Below are positions 49,184 through 62,323 of a DNA stretch of 64,000 nucleotides, piece after piece. The stretch spans positions 186,001-250,000 of the forward strand of contig NZ_FOFI01000002.1 of NCBI RefSeq assembly GCF_900110605.1. Reading direction: 5' to 3'. Source of the stretch: Epilithonimonas lactis. Its GTDB lineage: Bacteria; Bacteroidota; Bacteroidia; Flavobacteriales; Weeksellaceae. Position numbers and translations under genes: made by a program. The notes under the pieces were generated by a model. It saw only the letters and a list, made by a program, of their open reading frames with translations. It was not told where the DNA came from and did not search any database. Numbering within the stretch: the first letter of the stretch is position 1; each line of letters begins with the position of its first letter.

Positions 49184-49981
49184 TTATTTGCAATAACAAG
49201 GTGGTCTTCCAAAAGAATAAGACAAAATAAGTGTTGCAGAGTTGACCCAATCTTTTGAATTTGGATTTCCTACATTCCTTTGCTGTACGAAACCTTGGAC
49301 AACCGCGGCTGTTTGTGCTTCATCGAGTGATGTTTGCAAAACTCTCACATCACCTTCTTCCATGGCGCTGTAATCCACTTTGTCTGAGAATGTAGGTCTG
49401 AAAGTGAACTCTCCCGACAATGCCCAATTGTAATTGAATTTATATTTGAGTCCTATTCCAAAAGGCAAGCCCATTGTGAATGTATTTTCTTTCCTGTAGT
49501 TCACAAGTACGTCTGAAGCCGAGTTGATGGTAAGCTCTGGTTTTGAACCGTTCATGTACAATGCAGAGATCCCTCCAAAAATATAAGGACTGATCATACT
49601 TATCTGCTCGTCATTGACTGGCAAGAAATTATATTCGAAAAGCAAGTCTGCAGAGAACACCGAATTGGTTCCTCGCAGTTGTCTCATTCTTCGGTAATTT
49701 TCTTTCGCATACCTGTCATCAAACTGGATATTGCTGAAACCTAGATTAAGCCTTACCGTTTGATATGGGTTAAAATTCATCCTGTACAACAATCCACCAT
49801 AAAATGGCAAACCATTGTCTGAGACGCTTCCAACAGGTTTTTGCAAAACATAATTTGTTCTGCCGATGTCACCCACAAGATTACTCATACCCAGTTGTAC
49901 TCCTATCTCGTGCCTCTGCGCATTGGCAAAACCGAGAAAACAAAACAAGGCGATAAAGGTATAAGTTAGTTCTTTCTTCAT
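49184..49981 (-). CDS. DUF6089 outer-membrane barrel protein
   Basis: 265 residues from ATG at 49981; an in-frame start at 50035 is not supported by the signal peptide MKKELTYTFIALFCFLGFANA. After it RHEIGVQLGMSNLVGDIGRTNY, and repeated amphipathic strands (MNFNPYQTVRLNLGFSNIQFDD). It ends with FTFRPTFSDKVDY and TLILSYSFGRPPCYCK. Family DUF6089 occurs just before uppS-bamA in Flavobacteriia; function unknown. Confidence 0.88.
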   Translation of the reverse strand: MKKELTYTFIALFCFLGFANAQRHEIGVQLGMSNLVGDIGRTNYVLQKPVGSVSDNGLPFYGGLLYRMNFNPYQTVRLNLGFSNIQFDDRYAKENYRRMRQLRGTNSVFSADLLFEYNFLPVNDEQISMISPYIFGGISALYMNGSKPELTINSASDVLVNYRKENTFTMGLPFGIGLKYKFNYNWALSGEFTFRPTFSDKVDYSAMEEGDVRVLQTSLDEAQTAAVVQGFVQQRNVGNPNSKDWVNSATLILSYSFGRPPCYCK

Positions 49982-50021
49982 TTTCAATATGCTGAAACGT
50001 CTTTTACTCAAAAATTTGGTG

Positions 50022-50029
50022 CAAATATA
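50022..50029 (-). promoter_or_regulatory. Candidate -7 promoter of the DUF6089-uppS-bamA operon
   Basis: On the complement TATATTTG, about 40 nt upstream of the ATG at 49981, fits TAnnTTTG. No clear -33 box at the standard spacing. Confidence 0.45.
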
Positions 50030-50131
50030 AAACATTTTTAGTTTAAGGAACTTCTTAAAGTTAAGTTAAATAAGACTCGAAAAATATAAATTATTGTTAT
50101 AAAAACGAACATATCTTTAAAATAGTCTGCA

Positions 50132-50159: not shown

Positions 50160-52664
50160 CTATTTTCTGTTGAAAAACATTTTCAGTTTATTTCTGATCT
50201 TGATGATCGTTGGCTCTTTATAATTTTTATCTTCATCAAAATAACCATAACCATAGCCGTAGCCATAACCGTATCCGTAGCCGTATCCATAACCGTAGCC
50301 TTGCTTGATACTGAAGTCATTATAGACCAGACCCAGGTTGACAACTTCCTTGTTAAAATATTTTTCGCTGATCATTCTTAACATGTGCTTCTCGGTATAC
50401 TCGTGGCGGGCAACATAGATCGTGGTATCCGCTTTTTTGATGAGTTCGAAAGAATCGGCAACCAGCCCAACTGGTGGTGAATCTATAATGACATATTCAT
50501 AGATTTCTTTCAATCTTTCGATGAACTTCATATTATTATCGCTCATCAAGAGTTCTGATGGATTTGGTGGAATAGGTCCAGAAGTGATCACATCCAATCC
50601 AGGTATGCTGGTATGATTGATAATGTCCTCCAATTCTACTTGGCCAGTAAGATAATTGGAAATTCCGTTTTTGTTATTGATCTTGAAATCCCCGAAAATT
50701 TTAGGTTTTCTAAGGTCCATTCCCAACAATACGGCTTTTTTCCCGCTCAGGCCTAAAACCGATGCAATATTGATCGACACATAGGTCTTTCCTTCGCCAC
50801 TGATGGACGATGTCACAAGGACCACTTTGCTTTTTTGCTCTTCATCAAACAAGAATCTGAGATTTGCCCTTATCGCCCGGAAAGCTTCTGAAATTGATGA
50901 TTTTGGCTCTTCCAGAACAGTGAGGTTATTATCATAATTATTGTGACCAATGACGCCGAGCAATGGAATCCTAGTAGCGGATAGCAGCTCTTTAAGATTT
51001 CTAATTTTGTTATCCAACAATTCTCCTAAGGCTAAGAAAATTAGTGGAATAAGTAAAAGACCACCTATGATCTGCATCTTTGTAGCATTCACATTGGGTG
51101 CAATAGGTCCTTGTCCGAGATTCTTTGCCCAGTCGATGACACTTAGATTGCTTTGGTTTGTTGCCACCCTCATTTGGGATTTAGCTTGCTCCGTAAGCAG
51201 TGTGTTGTACGTACTTTCGATGATATCATAACCTCTTTGGGCATCTAGAAAGATACGTTGTTTTTCTGGCAGCGTGACAAGATCTTGGTCCATCTTTGCT
51301 ATTTCCGCATTGAGATCTGTCAGTTTGTTGTAATAGCCTTCAAAATATTTTTTCAGTCCATCTTGAGAATTGAATTTGGCTTCATTGATAAGCCGATTGA
51401 TTTCTCTCATTGGCTCAGAATTCGGGGTGTAGATCTGTGCCATCTCTCTTCTTTTGGCATAGAGAGATTTTAGTTCCGATACCGAGGCATTGAAATTACC
51501 ATCTTCAATCCCAGCCAGATTCAAACTGATCATTTTCTCAATACTATTGGTACTGACAGAAGATTTGATATTATTGAGGGAATTGATCTTCGTCACCAAT
51601 TCAGCTTTTTGAGTTTCAAGCTCCGTCAACTTAGCTAAGGTTTTGGAGTCGATGTTCTCCATATCGAAGAGGCGGTTGTTAATCTTCAGATTGTTGAGAA
51701 CGGCACCGCTGGAATCCAGTTTTTTCCTGATCTTGGTAAGATTTTCATTGAGGTACTCCACAGTATTTTGGTCCACTGTATTTTGATCCATCAATCTTTT
51801 CTTGATCAATTCCTTTACAGAATTATTCAGAAAACCTACAATATTATTAAGGTTATACCCCGATTTGCTGATGATCATGATAGACGGAAGTTCCTTGTCA
51901 AAATCCACTGCAATGCTACTGATAATATTATTAACAGCTTGATTGACAGGAATAAGCGTCACCATGATGTTTTCCAGCCCTTTTTTGGGCACAACAGGAT
52001 TTGGAACCAACTTAAATTTCAGATTCGGCGTTTCATACCATTCATTAACACTCAGTGTTTTATTTTCCGGTCTCGCATATGCGGGTACTGATTCCGACGA
52101 TTCCGAAACAAAACTGTATAAATTGGTAGACTCACCTTCTTCTGGCAGGATGATCTCATATTTATCTTTTCCTTTTGGGATAATTGTGATGGGATAATTA
52201 ACCTGTTGCAAATGTTCGTTATCAATCTCCAAGAAGACCGGACTGTCCTCCTGATCCAGATAAGTGGTCTTGATCAAGCCTTTCGTGGTATAATTGGTAT
52301 TCAGATTCAGCTTTTTTACCAAGTACTCGTTATGACTTCTCGACAATAATATTTTTTTCAGATAGACACCGTCTTGGTTTCCGCCTTGTCCCCAAATAAA
52401 GTTAATCGATTGATTAGGCGTAAAATAGCTGGATGTATTATTGGATATACTCAAGGAAAGGTTGGCAGAAAAAACCCTTTGTGCATAATATTTACTATAA
52501 ACATATGAGATACAGTACCCTAAAAAACCTAAGAGGACAAACCAGTACCAATTGCGTATGACCCTTTGCACAAAGTGAACCGGATCAAACAAACTGAATG
52601 ACCCCATTTTTTCAGCATTCTGCGCTGTATTTTGGGCATTGTTGCCGTTTTTATCTGGAATCAT
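50160..52664 (-). CDS. wzc: Polysaccharide co-polymerase/tyrosine autokinase (Wzc family)
   Basis: 834 residues. N-terminal Wzz domain with two membrane helices (about 35-55 and 535-555), a long coiled coil between, and the cytoplasmic BY-kinase: Walker A SSISGEGKTYVSINIAS (about 624), Walker A' LGMDLRKPKIFGDF and Walker B YVIIDSPPVGL. The C-terminus carries ten Gly-Tyr dipeptides followed by FDEDKNYKEP, the autophosphorylated Tyr cluster. It controls chain length and export. Its ATG overlaps the wza stop by one base (TAATG). Terminator at the end. Confidence 0.95.
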   Translation of the reverse strand: MIPDKNGNNAQNTAQNAEKMGSFSLFDPVHFVQRVIRNWYWFVLLGFLGYCISYVYSKYYAQRVFSANLSLSISNNTSSYFTPNQSINFIWGQGGNQDGVYLKKILLSRSHNEYLVKKLNLNTNYTTKGLIKTTYLDQEDSPVFLEIDNEHLQQVNYPITIIPKGKDKYEIILPEEGESTNLYSFVSESSESVPAYARPENKTLSVNEWYETPNLKFKLVPNPVVPKKGLENIMVTLIPVNQAVNNIISSIAVDFDKELPSIMIISKSGYNLNNIVGFLNNSVKELIKKRLMDQNTVDQNTVEYLNENLTKIRKKLDSSGAVLNNLKINNRLFDMENIDSKTLAKLTELETQKAELVTKINSLNNIKSSVSTNSIEKMISLNLAGIEDGNFNASVSELKSLYAKRREMAQIYTPNSEPMREINRLINEAKFNSQDGLKKYFEGYYNKLTDLNAEIAKMDQDLVTLPEKQRIFLDAQRGYDIIESTYNTLLTEQAKSQMRVATNQSNLSVIDWAKNLGQGPIAPNVNATKMQIIGGLLLIPLIFLALGELLDNKIRNLKELLSATRIPLLGVIGHNNYDNNLTVLEEPKSSISEAFRAIRANLRFLFDEEQKSKVVLVTSSISGEGKTYVSINIASVLGLSGKKAVLLGMDLRKPKIFGDFKINNKNGISNYLTGQVELEDIINHTSIPGLDVITSGPIPPNPSELLMSDNNMKFIERLKEIYEYVIIDSPPVGLVADSFELIKKADTTIYVARHEYTEKHMLRMISEKYFNKEVVNLGLVYNDFSIKQGYGYGYGYGYGYGYGYGYGYFDEDKNYKEPTIIKIRNKLKMFFNRK
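50244..50303 (-). repeat. Gly-Tyr hexanucleotide repeat in wzc
   Basis: Ten GY codon pairs in a row, written with varied codons (Gly GGT, GGC, GGA; Tyr TAT, TAC). The unit is 6 nt, imperfect at DNA level. It is in the predicted tyrosine-phosphorylation tail. Confidence 0.85.
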
Positions 52665-54681: not shown

Positions 54682-55695
54682 TCAATTTTGATTCATTAAT
54701 CTCCGGATAAGTCCCTTAAATCCGAAGAAGTACAAGAGATAATATAATTTTTTTTTCAGTGGCAAAGATAACAGATAATTCTTACCAAACCGATTAAATT
54801 GCAATATATCTTTAGTTTTTAGGCCTTTAGTTTGTATAAAAGTATCCAAAATTTGCGACATTTTGTAAAAATCATCATCTTTTTTCACAAAAGCCAAATA
54901 GGCCAAAAATGTGTAGACACCTTCCAAAATTTGAAAATTCTTCAAAGCTTCCGTATGATTTGAAAATCTACTTTTCTGAAATGATTTTTCCACAGTTTCC
55001 ACAGCATTCAAAATATCGAGCCCTTTCATTGTATGACTTTTGCTGATGGAATCTTGCCTTTCCAAATATTGATAATGAAAATTCGATGTAAAAGCTAAAA
55101 CATTGCATTCCAATAAAAGTTGTGGGATCAACTCAATATCTTCAAAATGAATTCCTTTTTTGAATCGCTTTCCATTGAACAAATCTCTATTGAAAATCTT
55201 GTTACAAGCAAAATATGAAATATCAGAGAAAACAGAGATATTTTCTGCTAGAACAATTTTCTCGGGAAAACCTGGAAGTTGGGTCAACTTTTGAGTGACG
55301 TTTCCGACCTCATCGACTTTTTGAAGATTACAAATCGTCATTTCAGCTTGGTGTTTTTCAGCAAGATTGTACATTTCTTCAAACATCGTTCCCGAAACGT
55401 AATCGTCGCTATCTACAAAACCTAGATATTTTCCTTTCGCTCTATCAATCCCGTAATTTCGCGCATCGCTAAGACCGCCATTTTCTTTGATGAAACCGAA
55501 AACTTGATTCGGATATTTTTGTTGAAAGTCTTCAATGATTTGTTGCGAATTATCCTTGCTTCCATCATTGATGACCAAGATCTCAATTTCCTTCAAAGTT
55601 TGACCGACCAAGGACAACAGACATTTTTCCAGATATAATTCGACATTATAAACGGGTACGATGATTGAAACTTTGATATGAAATTGAAAATTCAT
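54682..55695 (-). CDS. Family 2 glycosyltransferase
   Basis: 337 residues. GT-A start VSIIVPVYNVELYLEKCLLSLVGQTLKEIEILVINDGSKDNSQQIIED, donor motif GFVDSDDYVSG and acceptor region HFEDIELIPQLLLECNVLAF. It probably adds one sugar of the repeating unit. Three nt from the arginase-fold gene, 21 nt before the WecA-like gene. Confidence 0.93.
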   Translation of the reverse strand: MNFQFHIKVSIIVPVYNVELYLEKCLLSLVGQTLKEIEILVINDGSKDNSQQIIEDFQQKYPNQVFGFIKENGGLSDARNYGIDRAKGKYLGFVDSDDYVSGTMFEEMYNLAEKHQAEMTICNLQKVDEVGNVTQKLTQLPGFPEKIVLAENISVFSDISYFACNKIFNRDLFNGKRFKKGIHFEDIELIPQLLLECNVLAFTSNFHYQYLERQDSISKSHTMKGLDILNAVETVEKSFQKSRFSNHTEALKNFQILEGVYTFLAYLAFVKKDDDFYKMSQILDTFIQTKGLKTKDILQFNRFGKNYLLSLPLKKKLYYLLYFFGFKGLIRRLMNQN

Positions 55696-55698
55696 ATT

Positions 55699-56769
55699 TT
55701 AATTTCTTGTAAATCTCGGACTTAGAAATCCTCTTTTGGCCTCGTCAAAATCCGAACGCGAACACGGAATACAATTGTCAATATTCTCATCCTCGCCAAA
55801 ATACCAAAGATTGCTGAAAACATCGCGTTTGAAAGCATATTGCTCATCCTTGATCAAAACAAAAAATGTTTCAAAAGACTTCTCTTTCGGATGCGACCTT
55901 TGAATATTGATCCCCTCGATCAAATACCAAAGCATCTGCGCCAAAAGCTGGTGATTGAGCTGAGAATCAGAATAAATATTATAATTGAAAATCCCGACAG
56001 ACTTTAGTTTTTCACCAAGTCCGATTTCCTTCATATACGCGCAAACTTCCCTTTTATTAAGGCCATTCACCTGTGGATTGATGGAAAAAGCCTCGTTGAA
56101 ACTTTCCACCGCATCACAGTTGATGGTCACCAAATCTGCCTTTCGGAAGTAAGGCTCGGTTTTCTCTGTGGAATTCATCATCTCTGCCAATCGGATAATG
56201 TCAAATTGAACTTCCTTGATGAGTTTCACAGAATCAGATTCGTTCAGATGTTTCTGATAACCAAGGTGATGATAATTCTTGATAGAGAAATTTTTGGAAC
56301 CCAAGATCTTACTTAGGAAATTTGACTCGTGAATCTCTTCGTCTTGTTTCAGAGAAACCACATTGCTGATCTGCGTATAATTGATGTCTTTCTGATGAAA
56401 ACTGAGCGCCGAAAAAAGCGAAAAAGCAAAGTCGTTGCTTCCGCCAATCACGATTGGAATCGCGTGTTTGAAGTGACAAGCTGACAAAACCTCCTGCAAA
56501 ATATAATGCGAATCCTGAGGTGTTTTCCCGGAAACCAAATCGCCCAGATCTACAATCGGAATCTCAAAATCGAGTTGAGATAATTTGTAAAACTCTCTTC
56601 GGATCTGCGTAAATTCCTGACTATCGGCATCGCCGTTTGCACCGCGGTAATCGGACAAAAACAACAACACAATGCTGTCTTCCTTTATCTCGTTGGTGAT
56701 CTTGTCTCCGATCTGCCAATTCTCGGTTCGGACTTTTCTTGGTGGAATAATAAAATCTTCGAAGTTCAT
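55699..56769 (-). CDS. Arginase/formimidoylglutamase-fold protein with degenerate metal site
   Basis: 356 residues. Position and length fit the ureohydrolase fold, and it is often annotated as formimidoylglutamase. The first metal motif GGDHS is GGSND (about 110), the DAHxD motif is not found where SLKQDEEIHES stands, and the third motif SxDxDxxDP is TINCDAVESF (about 215). At least four of the usual Mn ligands are replaced, so catalysis is doubtful. It is embedded in the exopolysaccharide operon (6 nt and 3 nt gaps). Role unknown. Confidence 0.8.
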   Translation of the reverse strand: MNFEDFIIPPRKVRTENWQIGDKITNEIKEDSIVLLFLSDYRGANGDADSQEFTQIRREFYKLSQLDFEIPIVDLGDLVSGKTPQDSHYILQEVLSACHFKHAIPIVIGGSNDFAFSLFSALSFHQKDINYTQISNVVSLKQDEEIHESNFLSKILGSKNFSIKNYHHLGYQKHLNESDSVKLIKEVQFDIIRLAEMMNSTEKTEPYFRKADLVTINCDAVESFNEAFSINPQVNGLNKREVCAYMKEIGLGEKLKSVGIFNYNIYSDSQLNHQLLAQMLWYLIEGINIQRSHPKEKSFETFFVLIKDEQYAFKRDVFSNLWYFGEDENIDNCIPCSRSDFDEAKRGFLSPRFTRN

Positions 56770-56774
56770 TGATC

Positions 56775-58331
56775 CTATTTTATAATATTAATGATGACAT
56801 CTTTCGGCATTTGTTTGGAAAACTCAACCAATTGACTTCTTAGTTTGTCTGTATTTTCTTTTTTCACGGCATAAAATGTAACAATTGACCCGCCACAAAT
56901 GTAATTATCCAGAATCTCAATCGTTCCCACTTTCGTGAAATAATCTGGCATCTTCGCCCAAGTATGATACACCATAGCAACATCGAAATCCTGAGATCTG
57001 GAGGTATTGTAGATGTAATCCTTAAGATCTTTGGTGTCGGCAAATTTACCATGTTCATCTTTTCTAAGTTTCGCAACTTCGATGCTTCCGAGTCCATAAG
57101 TATCAAGCAGATGAATATTGTTGTAATAAGTGATCGCCCCAATATCATTGGCAACAACTTTGGAATCCTTGTAATATTTATGAAGAAAATCTGCCAGTTG
57201 TATCTGTTGGTCATAGATATTTTTAGAAGCAAGTGTTTGATTTTTCACCATCGGAATAAAACGCAGACAAAATACGACCAGAAGAAATACAATGATTTCG
57301 GTTTTTAGAATGACATCTCCTGTTCTTTTCTGAAAAACGCTATCCGCAAAAGGTGCAATTGCAAATAGAACAACTACAACCAAATAAGCCTCATAGCGAA
57401 TAAGCCAACCAAAATTAGCAAACATAAGATGCAATGAAAATCCACAGAAAACGATGAGAGGAATTGCATTTTTGGAAATCTTATTCATCCATAATCTTTC
57501 ACCTTTCGCTTTGATGAAGATCTGCGCAATCAGAATCAGGACCAATATCAGAACGGAAATTCCGCGAAAGCCATTTCCAGCCATTCTGGTCACAAATCCC
57601 ACCAATCCATTGTTTGTATTTCCTTTTAAGATCAGAGAGTTCGGAAGGAAGAATGAACCGTGATCCAAAGAGATCCAACCATAGATCAAAACCGGTGTCA
57701 ACGCAAACAATCCCAATGCAATGCTTTGAAAATATTCTTTCTTGATGAAGAACAGATAGACGCACATGAAAAATATGAAGAACAAGCTTTCGTACCGGAA
57801 ACCTGTCGCCAAAATCGCTATCAAAGCCAAATTGGAAAAACCTCTTGGCGTCTCGTGCTCCAAATATTTTTTGAAGGCGAGCAAAACCAAAACCATTGAC
57901 AACGTGTGGAAAACGTGCTCCATTCCCGTCATGATCATCAGGTGCAATGGCATTAATAAAACTATTGAAGCTAGAAAAATAGTGTAGGTCAATTTTGAAA
58001 ATTGCTTCAGATAATTGTGAGAGATCCAAATTAAAAATAAGCCTGCCACCGTATTGGCAACCAACGGAATATATTCCCAATTACCAAAAACCTTGATCAA
58101 GATCGCCAGCAGAAATGTGAAAAGCGGAGAAGAAGTTGTGGATGAAAATTCGTACTGCGTGATTCCCCAGGTTTGGAATTCTGCAAAATTCTTCGCCATC
58201 GACAAATGGATGTAGGCATCATCCAGCGGGTAAATGTATCGCCCAGCAAAACTAGTGACGGCCTGGATATTGAAAAAGATCAATAGACCCAAAATTAGAA
58301 GTATCAAGAAAAGTATCGTGTGTTTTTTCAT
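56775..58331 (-). CDS. Large membrane protein of the polysaccharide cluster
   Basis: 518 residues from ATG at 58331, 12 helices or so. Opening MKKHTILFLILLILGLLIFFNIQAVTSFAGRYIYPLDDAYIHLSMAKNFAEF has the D-D-A/ASP motif of GT-C-type (ArnT/PMT-like) glycosyltransferases, and a C-terminal soluble domain (about 370-518) contains KDSKVVANDIGAITYYN. It could modify lipid-linked sugars. Its start is 9 nt after the EpsG gene. Confidence 0.75.
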   Translation of the reverse strand: MKKHTILFLILLILGLLIFFNIQAVTSFAGRYIYPLDDAYIHLSMAKNFAEFQTWGITQYEFSSTTSSPLFTFLLAILIKVFGNWEYIPLVANTVAGLFLIWISHNYLKQFSKLTYTIFLASIVLLMPLHLMIMTGMEHVFHTLSMVLVLLAFKKYLEHETPRGFSNLALIAILATGFRYESLFFIFFMCVYLFFIKKEYFQSIALGLFALTPVLIYGWISLDHGSFFLPNSLILKGNTNNGLVGFVTRMAGNGFRGISVLILVLILIAQIFIKAKGERLWMNKISKNAIPLIVFCGFSLHLMFANFGWLIRYEAYLVVVVLFAIAPFADSVFQKRTGDVILKTEIIVFLLVVFCLRFIPMVKNQTLASKNIYDQQIQLADFLHKYYKDSKVVANDIGAITYYNNIHLLDTYGLGSIEVAKLRKDEHGKFADTKDLKDYIYNTSRSQDFDVAMVYHTWAKMPDYFTKVGTIEILDNYICGGSIVTFYAVKKENTDKLRSQLVEFSKQMPKDVIINIIK

Positions 58332-59559: not shown

Positions 59560-60909
59560 TCACCAATAAAAATTCCCGATCATCTGCATCCCAAACGTCT
59601 GAATCAGACAGAGATAAAACAAAACCTTGAATTGGTTGGGATCAACATCCTTCAACAAGATCAAAAAATAAGGTACCAAAAACAGACAGGCTCTCGCCGT
59701 TTCACCAGTTCCGTAAGCGCCTGTGAGAAGCATTGCCGACAGAGCAGCAATAGCGGAGAAAAACAGAATATTGATCTTTGGATTTCCAAAAACTTCGGTT
59801 CCAGCTCTCTTTGAAAAGAGAATTGCCAGGAAGCCAAAAGACAGAAACAAAAATATCTCCCCAATATCTTCCAGCCTGGTCATCAAATAAACAAATGGCT
59901 GATGAAAAAGTCTGAAACCATCCGGATTTTCTGAATGTGATGCCTGTAGGAAGGTTTCCAAATGACTATAACCTGTTGTTACACGAATCATCAGAAATGC
60001 TAAAACAAATAGGATTGTCATCATCAAACTCAGCCAGATGAAATTCCATTTTCCTTTGAGTAAAAAATAGAAACTGAAACAGCCTAAAAATGCAAACAGA
60101 AACAAACCTGAAAAAGTGATCAAATTCGTCAAAAGCAATCCTGAAAAGATGAATACGAATGACCAAACGTCGATTTTATTTTGATTGAAGATCCTCGCAA
60201 ATCCTAAAAGGAAGATAAATGTGGAAGTCAATACCAAAGAATCGATGGAGACCAAAAGATAAATATTGACCGATGGGATCACGGCAAACAAAATCAAGAG
60301 CCATTTTCTTCTCTGCGCTTCGAAGCCGAGATAAACCAGGATCTTATAAAATATAGGAAATGACAAACAGCCAATGGCAAAGAATACAATTGCCAGGGTT
60401 TCGATGTTAGAAATATTCAGGATCCAGAAATGCAAGAGCGTCACAAATGGTGGATGCGTTCTGGTGTGAAGTTGAAAATGTTCCAGATTTTTGGTGAAAT
60501 CACGAAGCCAAATTGCGCCATCTGTGATTTGGATCGCATCAGCATAATACTGTCTTCCTTTCAGGTAAAACGGTTGCAGAAAGGCGATATCAAAATTTCC
60601 CTGACTCAGATTTCCTAAAACTACAAGAGCAATCGCGACCAAAAAGAGAAGATAGACATTCAGTTTTTCTGAATATCGGAAGGCGAAAATCCCGGCGAAA
60701 AAAAACAGAAAGGCGAACACAAAGCCGCTCCACAAAAATTGATTGGGATAGATGACAGAGATCGGAAAAAGCAGACCAGTCCCTGTAAAACCGCCCTGCA
60801 GTTGATAATAGAAATTGGCTCCGGCAATGGCAACCCAAATGAAAATCGCGACGAAAAAGACAATCCAAGGAAAGTTCTTCAGCGTTGCCCATTGTAATTT
60901 TTCGCTCAT
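59560..60909 (-). CDS. Polytopic membrane protein, first gene of the polysaccharide operon
   Basis: 449 residues, about twelve helices. Similar in layout to the 518-residue protein: YADAIQITDGAIWLRDFTKNLEHFQLHTRTHPPFVTLLHFWI carries a possible luminal acidic loop, and GAYGTGETARACLFLVPYF a later motif. A GT-C-like glycosyltransferase is likely, but I do not recognise the family exactly. The operon appears to begin here. Confidence 0.7.
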   Translation of the reverse strand: MSEKLQWATLKNFPWIVFFVAIFIWVAIAGANFYYQLQGGFTGTGLLFPISVIYPNQFLWSGFVFAFLFFFAGIFAFRYSEKLNVYLLFLVAIALVVLGNLSQGNFDIAFLQPFYLKGRQYYADAIQITDGAIWLRDFTKNLEHFQLHTRTHPPFVTLLHFWILNISNIETLAIVFFAIGCLSFPIFYKILVYLGFEAQRRKWLLILFAVIPSVNIYLLVSIDSLVLTSTFIFLLGFARIFNQNKIDVWSFVFIFSGLLLTNLITFSGLFLFAFLGCFSFYFLLKGKWNFIWLSLMMTILFVLAFLMIRVTTGYSHLETFLQASHSENPDGFRLFHQPFVYLMTRLEDIGEIFLFLSFGFLAILFSKRAGTEVFGNPKINILFFSAIAALSAMLLTGAYGTGETARACLFLVPYFLILLKDVDPNQFKVLFYLCLIQTFGMQMIGNFYW

Positions 60910-61240: not shown

Positions 61241-62323
61241 TTACAAAATCTCGAAGACAAACGTGGTCGAAGTCTCGAACGCGCCGCCCTGCGTGGCACC
61301 GAAGAGGAACTGTGGTTTTTTGCCGTCTTTGCTCATCAGCAGCATCGGGCGCTCCAGCCTTCCGAATCGTTTCAGGTGTTTTGCGGGTTCGGGTTCCTGG
61401 ATGTAATGCTTCATCTCGAGGTAGGCGACCTTTGGTTTTGTCCATTGGATGCCGTCTTTGGTGGTGAGATGCAGGCCGTACTCGTGGTTGTAGAAGCCCA
61501 TGTCGCGCGCCACCATATGGAATCGGCCGTTCTGTTTCCAGATGAACGCGTCTTCCAGTTGGGCATTGTTGGGCATATTTGAGAAGTCGATGACGGGATT
61601 TTCGGAGACTTTGGTGTATGGTCCCAGTGGCGAATCTGATTTGGCCAAGCCGTACTTTCGGTTGCCTCGGACGCTTCCTTTTTGGTTGACATATTCGGCG
61701 GTGTTCCAGGATTTGTAGAACAGCCAATATTGGCCGTCGTTGCCTTTCACGAAAGCTGGATTGGTGGTGCAGTGGTCGTCCCACGCGCCTTCTTTCCCGG
61801 GGAGAAGCAAGGGTTGTTCTGGTCTTGTCCAGTCGCCATCGAGGGTTTTTGAGGTTGCCAATCCGATTCTTTTGGTATCGGTTTTCCCGTTGGAATTGCC
61901 CATAAAGAAGAGCAGATATTGGCCGTCTACTTTTGTGATCAATGGATTGTGGCAAGTGGTCGCATCCCAAAACTCGCCACCTCTTGGGGCAAGAATGACT
62001 TGCTTGTGCTCAAATTTTTCGAAAGGTGAATTGGCCTCTGCACGACAGATCTCGGAGCCATTGAGCCAGCCGCCCATTCCTTTTTCCTTCTTCCATCGGG
62101 AGTAAAACAGATGGACCTTGCCATCGTCGCCCCAGATCGGGGAACTGCACCAGATGTAGTAGCCATCGAGGGAAAACTGCCTTCCAATGGGTTTCAGTTT
62201 GAAGTAAGGCTTCTCAGAAAAATCAAATGCCTTGGTGAAGGATGTCCCAAAGACCACGGCTGCAACGCCTAAGGCTGAGGTCTGTAAAAAGTCTTTGCGG
62301 GTGATATGTTTTGGTGCCTTCAT
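61241..62323 (-). CDS. Secreted five-bladed-propeller glycoside hydrolase family protein
   Basis: 360 residues. The N-terminus MKAPKHITRKDFLQTSALGVAAVVF is Tat-like (RK instead of RR). Propeller-like repeats: GYYIWCSSPIWGDDGKVHLFYSRW, FWDATTCHNPLITKVDGQYLLFFMGNS and AWDDHCTTNPAFVKGNDGQYWLFYKSW, then QLEDAFIWKQNGRFHMVARDMG. This fits the GH43/GH117-type fold. Three hand-counted 60-base lines are 60, 47 and 57% GC, against about 38% for the upstream operon, so horizontal acquisition is likely. Lone gene with repeat copy D downstream. Confidence 0.83.
   Translation of the reverse strand: MKAPKHITRKDFLQTSALGVAAVVFGTSFTKAFDFSEKPYFKLKPIGRQFSLDGYYIWCSSPIWGDDGKVHLFYSRWKKEKGMGGWLNGSEICRAEANSPFEKFEHKQVILAPRGGEFWDATTCHNPLITKVDGQYLLFFMGNSNGKTDTKRIGLATSKTLDGDWTRPEQPLLLPGKEGAWDDHCTTNPAFVKGNDGQYWLFYKSWNTAEYVNQKGSVRGNRKYGLAKSDSPLGPYTKVSENPVIDFSNMPNNAQLEDAFIWKQNGRFHMVARDMGFYNHEYGLHLTTKDGIQWTKPKVAYLEMKHYIQEPEPAKHLKRFGRLERPMLLMSKDGKKPQFLFGATQGGAFETSTTFVFEIL

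Follow-up and report, generated by a model that had tools for sequence, protein, structure and literature searches.

We report that the window (the whole stretch of 64,000 nucleotides that was analyzed) carries a gene for a protein with the ureohydrolase fold that has lost most of its metal ligands. At a probability of about 0.5, we favor the reading that this protein is an ancient pseudoenzyme with a conserved, non-hydrolytic sensor or scaffold role, that it is expressed together with TopA, and that it possibly has a link to the T9SS. The metal-less arginase-fold family to which it belongs is found in 141 of the 149 genomes of the class sample and has a clear sequence signature, and many genomes place the family gene between topA and genes for gliding and secretion. 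These observations also call for caution in naming such genes formimidoylglutamase.

The pseudo-ureohydrolase gene (Table 1) has 356 codons, starts with ATG and contains no internal stops. Pfam Arginase (PF00491) matches the protein with an E value of 1.3e-6 and 28.6 bits, above the gathering cut-off of 22, and 19 of 24 family members (set A1) match the same model at E 0.01. A profile of the family (24 rows) ranks solved formimidoylglutamases first, with the Bacillus subtilis enzyme 3m1r as its top match (E 9.8e-15), and a phmmer search of the PDB gave 8ryi_C, subunit B of metformin hydrolase, as the top match (E 0.00023). An AlphaFold model from 81 close relatives is of modest quality (pLDDT 59.0, pTM 0.59), which suffices for the fold and not for pocket geometry; an earlier one, built on 38 close relatives, had a poor pLDDT of 50.5. 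The best structural alignment of the pLDDT-59 model is to the Trypanosoma cruzi formiminoglutamase 4myk (Z 18.1, rmsd 3.3, 224 residues), and the top 10 rows from Foldseek, with a model of the same protein, are all metformin hydrolase chains, 8ryi_C being the third. The 356-aa protein is, thus, a genuine but remote ureohydrolase with homology beyond chance.

Table 1. Coordinates, strand and basis of assignment of the pseudo-ureohydrolase gene, its motifs and its direct neighbors
Feature	Position in window	Strand	Basis
Pseudo-ureohydrolase gene, 356 aa (P0001)	55699..56769	-	ORF and Pfam/profile/structure matches
GGSND, residues 109-113 (GGDHS/GGDNS position)	56431..56445	-	Alignment; coordinates from residue numbers
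SNVVS, residues 135-139, replaces DAHxD	56353..56367	-	Alignment; coordinates from residue numbers
EPxxR, residues 205-209, family-specific (E and R invariant)	56143..56157	-	Alignment; coordinates from residue numbers
TINCD, residues 215-219, replaces SxDxD	56113..56127	-	Alignment; coordinates from residue numbers
C-terminal extension, about residues 296-356, with invariant F313, W322 and C336	55702..55884	-	Alignment, model
Downstream neighbor: family 2 glycosyltransferase (GT2)	54682..55695	-	Pfam; gap 3 nt
Upstream neighbor: membrane protein, weak PMT_2 match	56775..58331	-	Pfam below cut-off; gap 5 nt

Alignment with 3m1r and 2a0m places the six ligand positions of the Epilithonimonas protein at N112, S135, V137, S139, N217 and D219, giving the string N-S-V-S-N-D versus N/H-D-H-D-D-D in the enzymes. 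Four of the six positions are, therefore, changed, and the six-ligand binuclear site is gone, in agreement with the original observation of an intact ureohydrolase-fold gene without the usual metal ligands. The case for ligand loss is made by the replacement of DAHxD and the loss of the first SxDxD Asp, and not by the Asn at the first position. GGSND had also been read as a sign of ligand loss, but it is not diagnostic: the motif is GGDNS in 3m1r and GGGND in T. cruzi 2a0m, and the title of PDB entry 4myn names an N114H variant, which implies that Asn is natural at that site. GGSND is present in 79 of the 80 closest named relatives (the best 80 of 187), all titled Epilithonimonas or Chryseobacterium, and a simple pattern scan of the same best 80 of 187 left the second motif unmatched in 4 and the third in 10. 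DAHxD had been called missing, which is correct for its ligands but not for the motif as a whole, since SNVVS occupies its place; similarly, TINCD in place of SxDxD has lost the first Asp and kept the second.

The loss extends far beyond the host. In a 90-row alignment, from which L225 was excluded as too short, D-H-D-D-D is kept in none of the 82 orthologue rows and in seven of the eight enzyme-type rows, the eighth (L222) having Asn as the last DAHxD residue. The enzyme-type label (L222, L223, L224, L226, L227 and L228) denotes second copies or out-of-class matches together with their motifs, and L227 is from a genome without an orthologue. The DAHxD His and the second SxDxD Asp, which we take to be ligands of the second metal only (MnA and MnB in arginase numbering), are never both present across the 82 orthologue rows. 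Before the residue and ligand counts, 19 near-identical genus rows and seven partial or very divergent rows (L206 and L209-L214) were dropped; the latter seven also lack the ligand set. The three first-site Asp residues are kept in 33 of 44 non-core rows, where the first position is Gln in 21, His in 9, Asn in 2 and Lys in 1, and in 0 of the 12 rows of the core group to which the Epilithonimonas protein belongs. The DAHxD His site holds Arg or Lys in 27 of the 44 non-core rows, and the position of the Glu in EVDP, presumably the catalytic Glu, is Asn in all 12 core rows. Judged from these alignments, it is well supported that the classical active site has been lost in the Epilithonimonas lineage and that the full binuclear site has been lost across the family. 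Because none of the 82 orthologue rows has D-H-D-D-D, the pseudoenzyme claim appears to hold more widely than it was made.

Homologues are present in 52 of 59 genomes of the relatives sample, host counted, at one copy per positive genome. In the class sample, a few of the 141 profile matches are weak or broken: the weak or partial ones include those in G503, G532 and G534 (E 1e-17 to 1e-18), and the match in G500 is interrupted by stop codons. The out-of-class profile matches listed end at or before position 316 of 381 and lack the C-terminal part, and the three that were read (L222, L223 and L228) have a full or nearly full ligand set. No relatives turned up in a scan of viral contigs. When 24 members were compared with Pfam and NCBIfam, every match was to a known enzyme family or at chance level, and the two collections seem to hold no dedicated model for the family. 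In a 66-row tree, which excluded the 19 near-identical genus rows and five of the seven partial or divergent rows, a branch supported at 100/100 separates the eight enzyme-type rows from the rest. The enzymes attach beside L049 with support of 86/84; this attachment in an unrooted tree does not prove a single early loss. The data are most simply explained by an early loss of the second metal site and a later loss of the first in the Epilithonimonas lineage. It is quite plausible that the family is an ancient, unnamed and conserved pseudo-ureohydrolase that is spread through the class, in what we take to be the phylum Bacteroidota, and that it derives from formimidoylglutamase-like ureohydrolases.

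The pseudo-ureohydrolase is under strong purifying selection in the genus, and its rate of evolution is close to the low rates of uppS and bamA. In a comparison in which dS is near saturation and the number of usable pairs varies by gene, its median dN/dS versus genus relatives was 0.042 (16/21 pairs usable), compared with 0.035 for uppS (9/20 pairs), 0.029 for bamA (17/20), 0.070 for the PorG-like gene (19/20), 0.074 for the gene at 59560-60909 (18/19), and 0.098 for both the adjacent GT2 gene (17/21) and the upstream membrane-protein gene (14/20). The value of 0.035 for the WecA-like gene derives from just 1 of 21 pairs, and Wza, Wzc and EpsG had 0 usable pairs. Median dN was 0.062 for the pseudo-ureohydrolase, 0.060 for uppS, 0.144 for GT2 and 0.196 for the upstream gene. 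A conserved function in the genus is well supported.

In the window, the gene had been placed 6 and 3 nt from flanking glycosyltransferase genes. Downstream, both the spacing and the GT2 assignment stand; upstream, the computed gap is one base shorter, and the neighbor matches a membrane glycosyltransferase family only below the cut-off (PMT_2; E 0.0048, 17.6 bits versus 26.1). Scans for promoters and terminators found about as many as in shuffled sequence on average. Several other genes in the window deserve mention. The gene at 49184-50035, located after the polysaccharide genes and before uppS, encodes the T9SS outer-membrane protein PorG (NF052316, 156.2 bits, above 130). A Wzc-like tyrosine autokinase is encoded at 50160-52664 (TIGR01007 above cut-off) and has a long alternating Gly-Tyr run near its end, presumably a phosphorylated tail. 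The gene at 59560-60909 encodes a 449-aa protein, multi-pass membrane by eye, which has no Pfam or NCBIfam match and whose cluster is found in 21 of 49 loci. Finally, 61241-62323 encodes a GH43/GH130-like protein (GH43 38.3 bits, above 32.2), which has a weak twin-arginine signal match below the cut-off and whose cluster is found at the same place in 8 of 49 loci.

Outside the genus, the setting of the gene is a different one. Of 27 family and order loci, with the names of topA and T9SS neighbors assigned by NCBIfam, 21 have topA as the immediate upstream gene in the same orientation (gaps of -1 to 100 nt, median 9), and 25 have it at some point in the locus. In 17, the next gene downstream is a T9SS gene, either porP or gldK (median gap 104 nt); these loci represent 27 of 29 gene-positive genomes, G036 and G052 being left out. 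In the genus, where 22 of 23 gene-positive genomes were used (G001 was left out, with its gene on a 3.3-kb contig), none of the 22 loci has topA directly upstream, and 10 have it within the fetched stretch. Among the best 80 of 187 relatives, from Epilithonimonas and Chryseobacterium, topA is in the locus in 69 and directly upstream in 25. The host topA (C6:250313-252901; L231:10314-12902) lies on the same strand 7.5 kb upstream, 313 bases past the window end. In 33 more distant class loci, which were hand-picked, partly for divergence, topA is adjacent in 6 and a T9SS gene directly downstream in 9. topA is absent from the fetched stretch in 27 of these 33 loci; hence, the topA link is not class-wide. 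A shared-neighbor search of 24 class loci, comprising those labeled as outside the topA/gld arrangement except L194 and L192, identified one recurrent opposite-strand gene, epimerase-like by eye, in 7 of 24, and no other gene common to more than three of these loci.

The alternative that survives best is that the protein is a cytosolic accessory of the T9SS and gliding machinery. The pseudo-ureohydrolase gene is linked to gld/por genes: 65 of 118 class genomes have it no more than 8 kb from gldM, a count that contig breaks may depress and for which ~0.7 is expected by chance (140 of 141 gene places were available, 121 genomes had a listed gldM place, and 118 had both). The T9SS genes found directly downstream in the family, order and class loci argue in the same direction, as does PorG, which belongs to the gene's co-directional run in the window. 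Moreover, 139 of the 141 gene-positive class genomes have a GldM match; however, GldM itself is found in 142 of 149, and because the two are near-universal in the class sample, their joint presence says little. Five of the 149 genomes lack both, three lack the gene alone and two lack GldM alone, and these include drafts: one of the three is 72% complete and the two are 95% and 81% complete. Among 21 genomes picked for lacking the gene or GldM, 13 are GldN-positive and none of these has a clear orthologue, with the caveats that G027 is 79% complete and that G047 has only an enzyme-type relative. A strict dependence on the T9SS was, therefore, rejected, and conversely the T9SS does not require the pseudo-ureohydrolase. 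In one of the 13, G561, a weak match of 39 positions that includes two stops (E 0.254) may be a gene remnant. Because the tight spacing is to topA and not to the T9SS genes, and host gldM is on a different contig (C7), we consider an accessory function in the T9SS possible but unlikely.

The sequence signature of the family bears on the possibility of retained chemistry. E205, R209, W281, F313, W322 and C336 do not vary across the 56 orthologue rows counted, and 52 of these rows have C243; E205, R209 and C243 are found at those positions in none of the eight enzyme-type rows. Structural alignments to solved enzymes mostly stop at residues 286-296, leaving ~60 residues of the protein beyond them, and in the alignment used for the ligand counts, orthologues exceed the end of the T. 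cruzi enzyme by a median of 79.5 residues. The model blocks from 301 to 356 score pLDDT 71-90. A new activity that relies on the conserved Cys, Glu and Arg is possible. H-D-x-D-D is kept in nine relatives outside the core group, and these could bind one metal. An active hydrolase that turns over a new substrate with a single metal ion or without metal would be consistent with these nine relatives, with the invariant Glu and Arg and the nearly invariant Cys, and with the strong purifying selection, but the loss of all three first-site Asp and the change of the EVDP Glu to Asn throughout the core group make such an enzyme rather improbable.

A dedicated function in exopolysaccharide synthesis or export, close to the new role in polysaccharide export or regulation first proposed for the gene, is suggested by the tight co-directional run with GT2, WecA-like, Wza-like and Wzc-like genes in the window and by GT2 directly downstream in 68 of 80 named Epilithonimonas and Chryseobacterium loci (best 80 of 187). 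Also, nucleotide-sugar dehydrogenase-like genes, an identity read from the sequence of cluster c32, are found at or soon after gldN in 4 of 27 family and order loci (the order-level L035, L041, L042 and L044), which implies that polysaccharide genes were not wholly foreign to the ancestral locus. Nevertheless, the proposal is poorly supported: in the loci read, polysaccharide genes adjoin the gene only inside the Epilithonimonas family, and loci from other families often have topA and T9SS genes next to it. Even inside that family the picture is mixed, with L033 and L050 having topA, the pseudo-ureohydrolase gene, GT2 and polysaccharide genes, and L034 and L051 having topA, the pseudo-ureohydrolase gene and gldKLMN. 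Among the family loci L073-L079, four (L074, L077, L078 and L079) keep the gene with the order broken and without GT2 directly behind it, and, as judged from dN/dS, the pseudo-ureohydrolase is more constrained than the adjacent glycosyltransferase. The polysaccharide setting in the host, thus, looks like a secondary, local rearrangement, and we regard the exopolysaccharide role as improbable, below the T9SS and new-chemistry roles, with only that of a partner subunit ranking lower.

The best NCBIfam match of the protein is hutG (TIGR01227) at 35.2 bits, far below the equivalog cut-off of 229.15; the expectation that automatic pipelines would call the gene formimidoylglutamase is, thus, right about the best match, but the NCBIfam model alone would not make the call. 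The pathway logic drawn from the HutF/HutG pair elsewhere in the window was right. The gene at 36725-37540 matches N-formylglutamate deformylase (250.8 bits, below the curated cut-off of 278.75), the gene at 37671-39197 matches HutF above the TIGR02022 cut-off, and together they make a two-step route in which formimidoylglutamase is not needed. At E 10, PF00491 matches nothing else in the host genome. In the genus, a second strong arginase-family match (E ~1e-53 to 1e-56) is present in 12 of 23 genomes and lacking in 11, host included, and the 10 others have no other PF00491 match at E 0.001; accordingly, no catalytic partner of PF00491 is needed. That the protein is a non-catalytic subunit completing an active ureohydrolase, like MetCb of metformin hydrolase, which passages of PMC11271267 describe as a metal-free binding partner, would fit the top PDB match and the first Foldseek rows but is very improbable in a host whose genome shows no second arginase-family gene to complete a pseudoenzyme-enzyme pair of the MetCaCb type.

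In the reading that we favor, that of a conserved sensor or scaffold expressed with TopA, the pseudoenzyme would have abandoned guanidino hydrolysis via a metal pair and taken on a ligand-sensing or scaffolding role in the cytosol, for which it could use the old pocket or the newer E205, R209, C243 and C336. This role would serve a housekeeping process that is co-expressed with TopA, and ancestrally with topA and the neighboring T9SS genes; a link to the cell-surface secretion system would be possible, not obligatory. A more specific version, suggested by the gene order, the spacing and the conserved fold without a catalytic site, is that the protein is a guanidino or polyamine sensor that acts on or with DNA topoisomerase I and links DNA topology to the production of the T9SS/gliding machinery; this is a long shot. 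In the open-licence literature, we found no paper tying formimidoylglutamase to gldK, arginase to gldK and gldL, or an arginase family protein to the T9SS, and among the papers listed none was recognizably about this gene; an earlier description elsewhere is possible; "topA" is absent from the passages of PMC8986121 examined.

In its Discussion, PMC11271267 counts few metal-less arginase-fold proteins, with a mostly unclear role. In passages of the same paper, MetCb/MfmB is likewise a bacterial pseudo-ureohydrolase without metal; it works only with a catalytic partner, whereas the host shows no arginase-family partner. TbARG of Trypanosoma brucei (4rhj and related entries) is likewise a metal-less member of the arginase fold, described as metal-free in a title cited in PMC11271267. 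The title of its S149D/R151H/S153D/S226D mutant implies that the natural residues are Ser, Arg, Ser and Ser, and the natural Arg at the His site resembles the Arg or Lys in the non-core rows of the Bacteroidota family. TbARG differs in being eukaryotic and in structural similarity to our model (Z 14.2-15.6 vs 18.1 for the T. cruzi enzyme). HutG (B. subtilis 3m1r; T. cruzi 4mxr and 2a0m) provides both the best profile match (3m1r) and the best structural match (the T. cruzi entries) and shares the Asn at GGxN with the Epilithonimonas protein. Unlike HutG, the Epilithonimonas protein lacks the DAHxD ligands and the first SxDxD Asp, and it has a C-terminal extension and the EPxxR motif.
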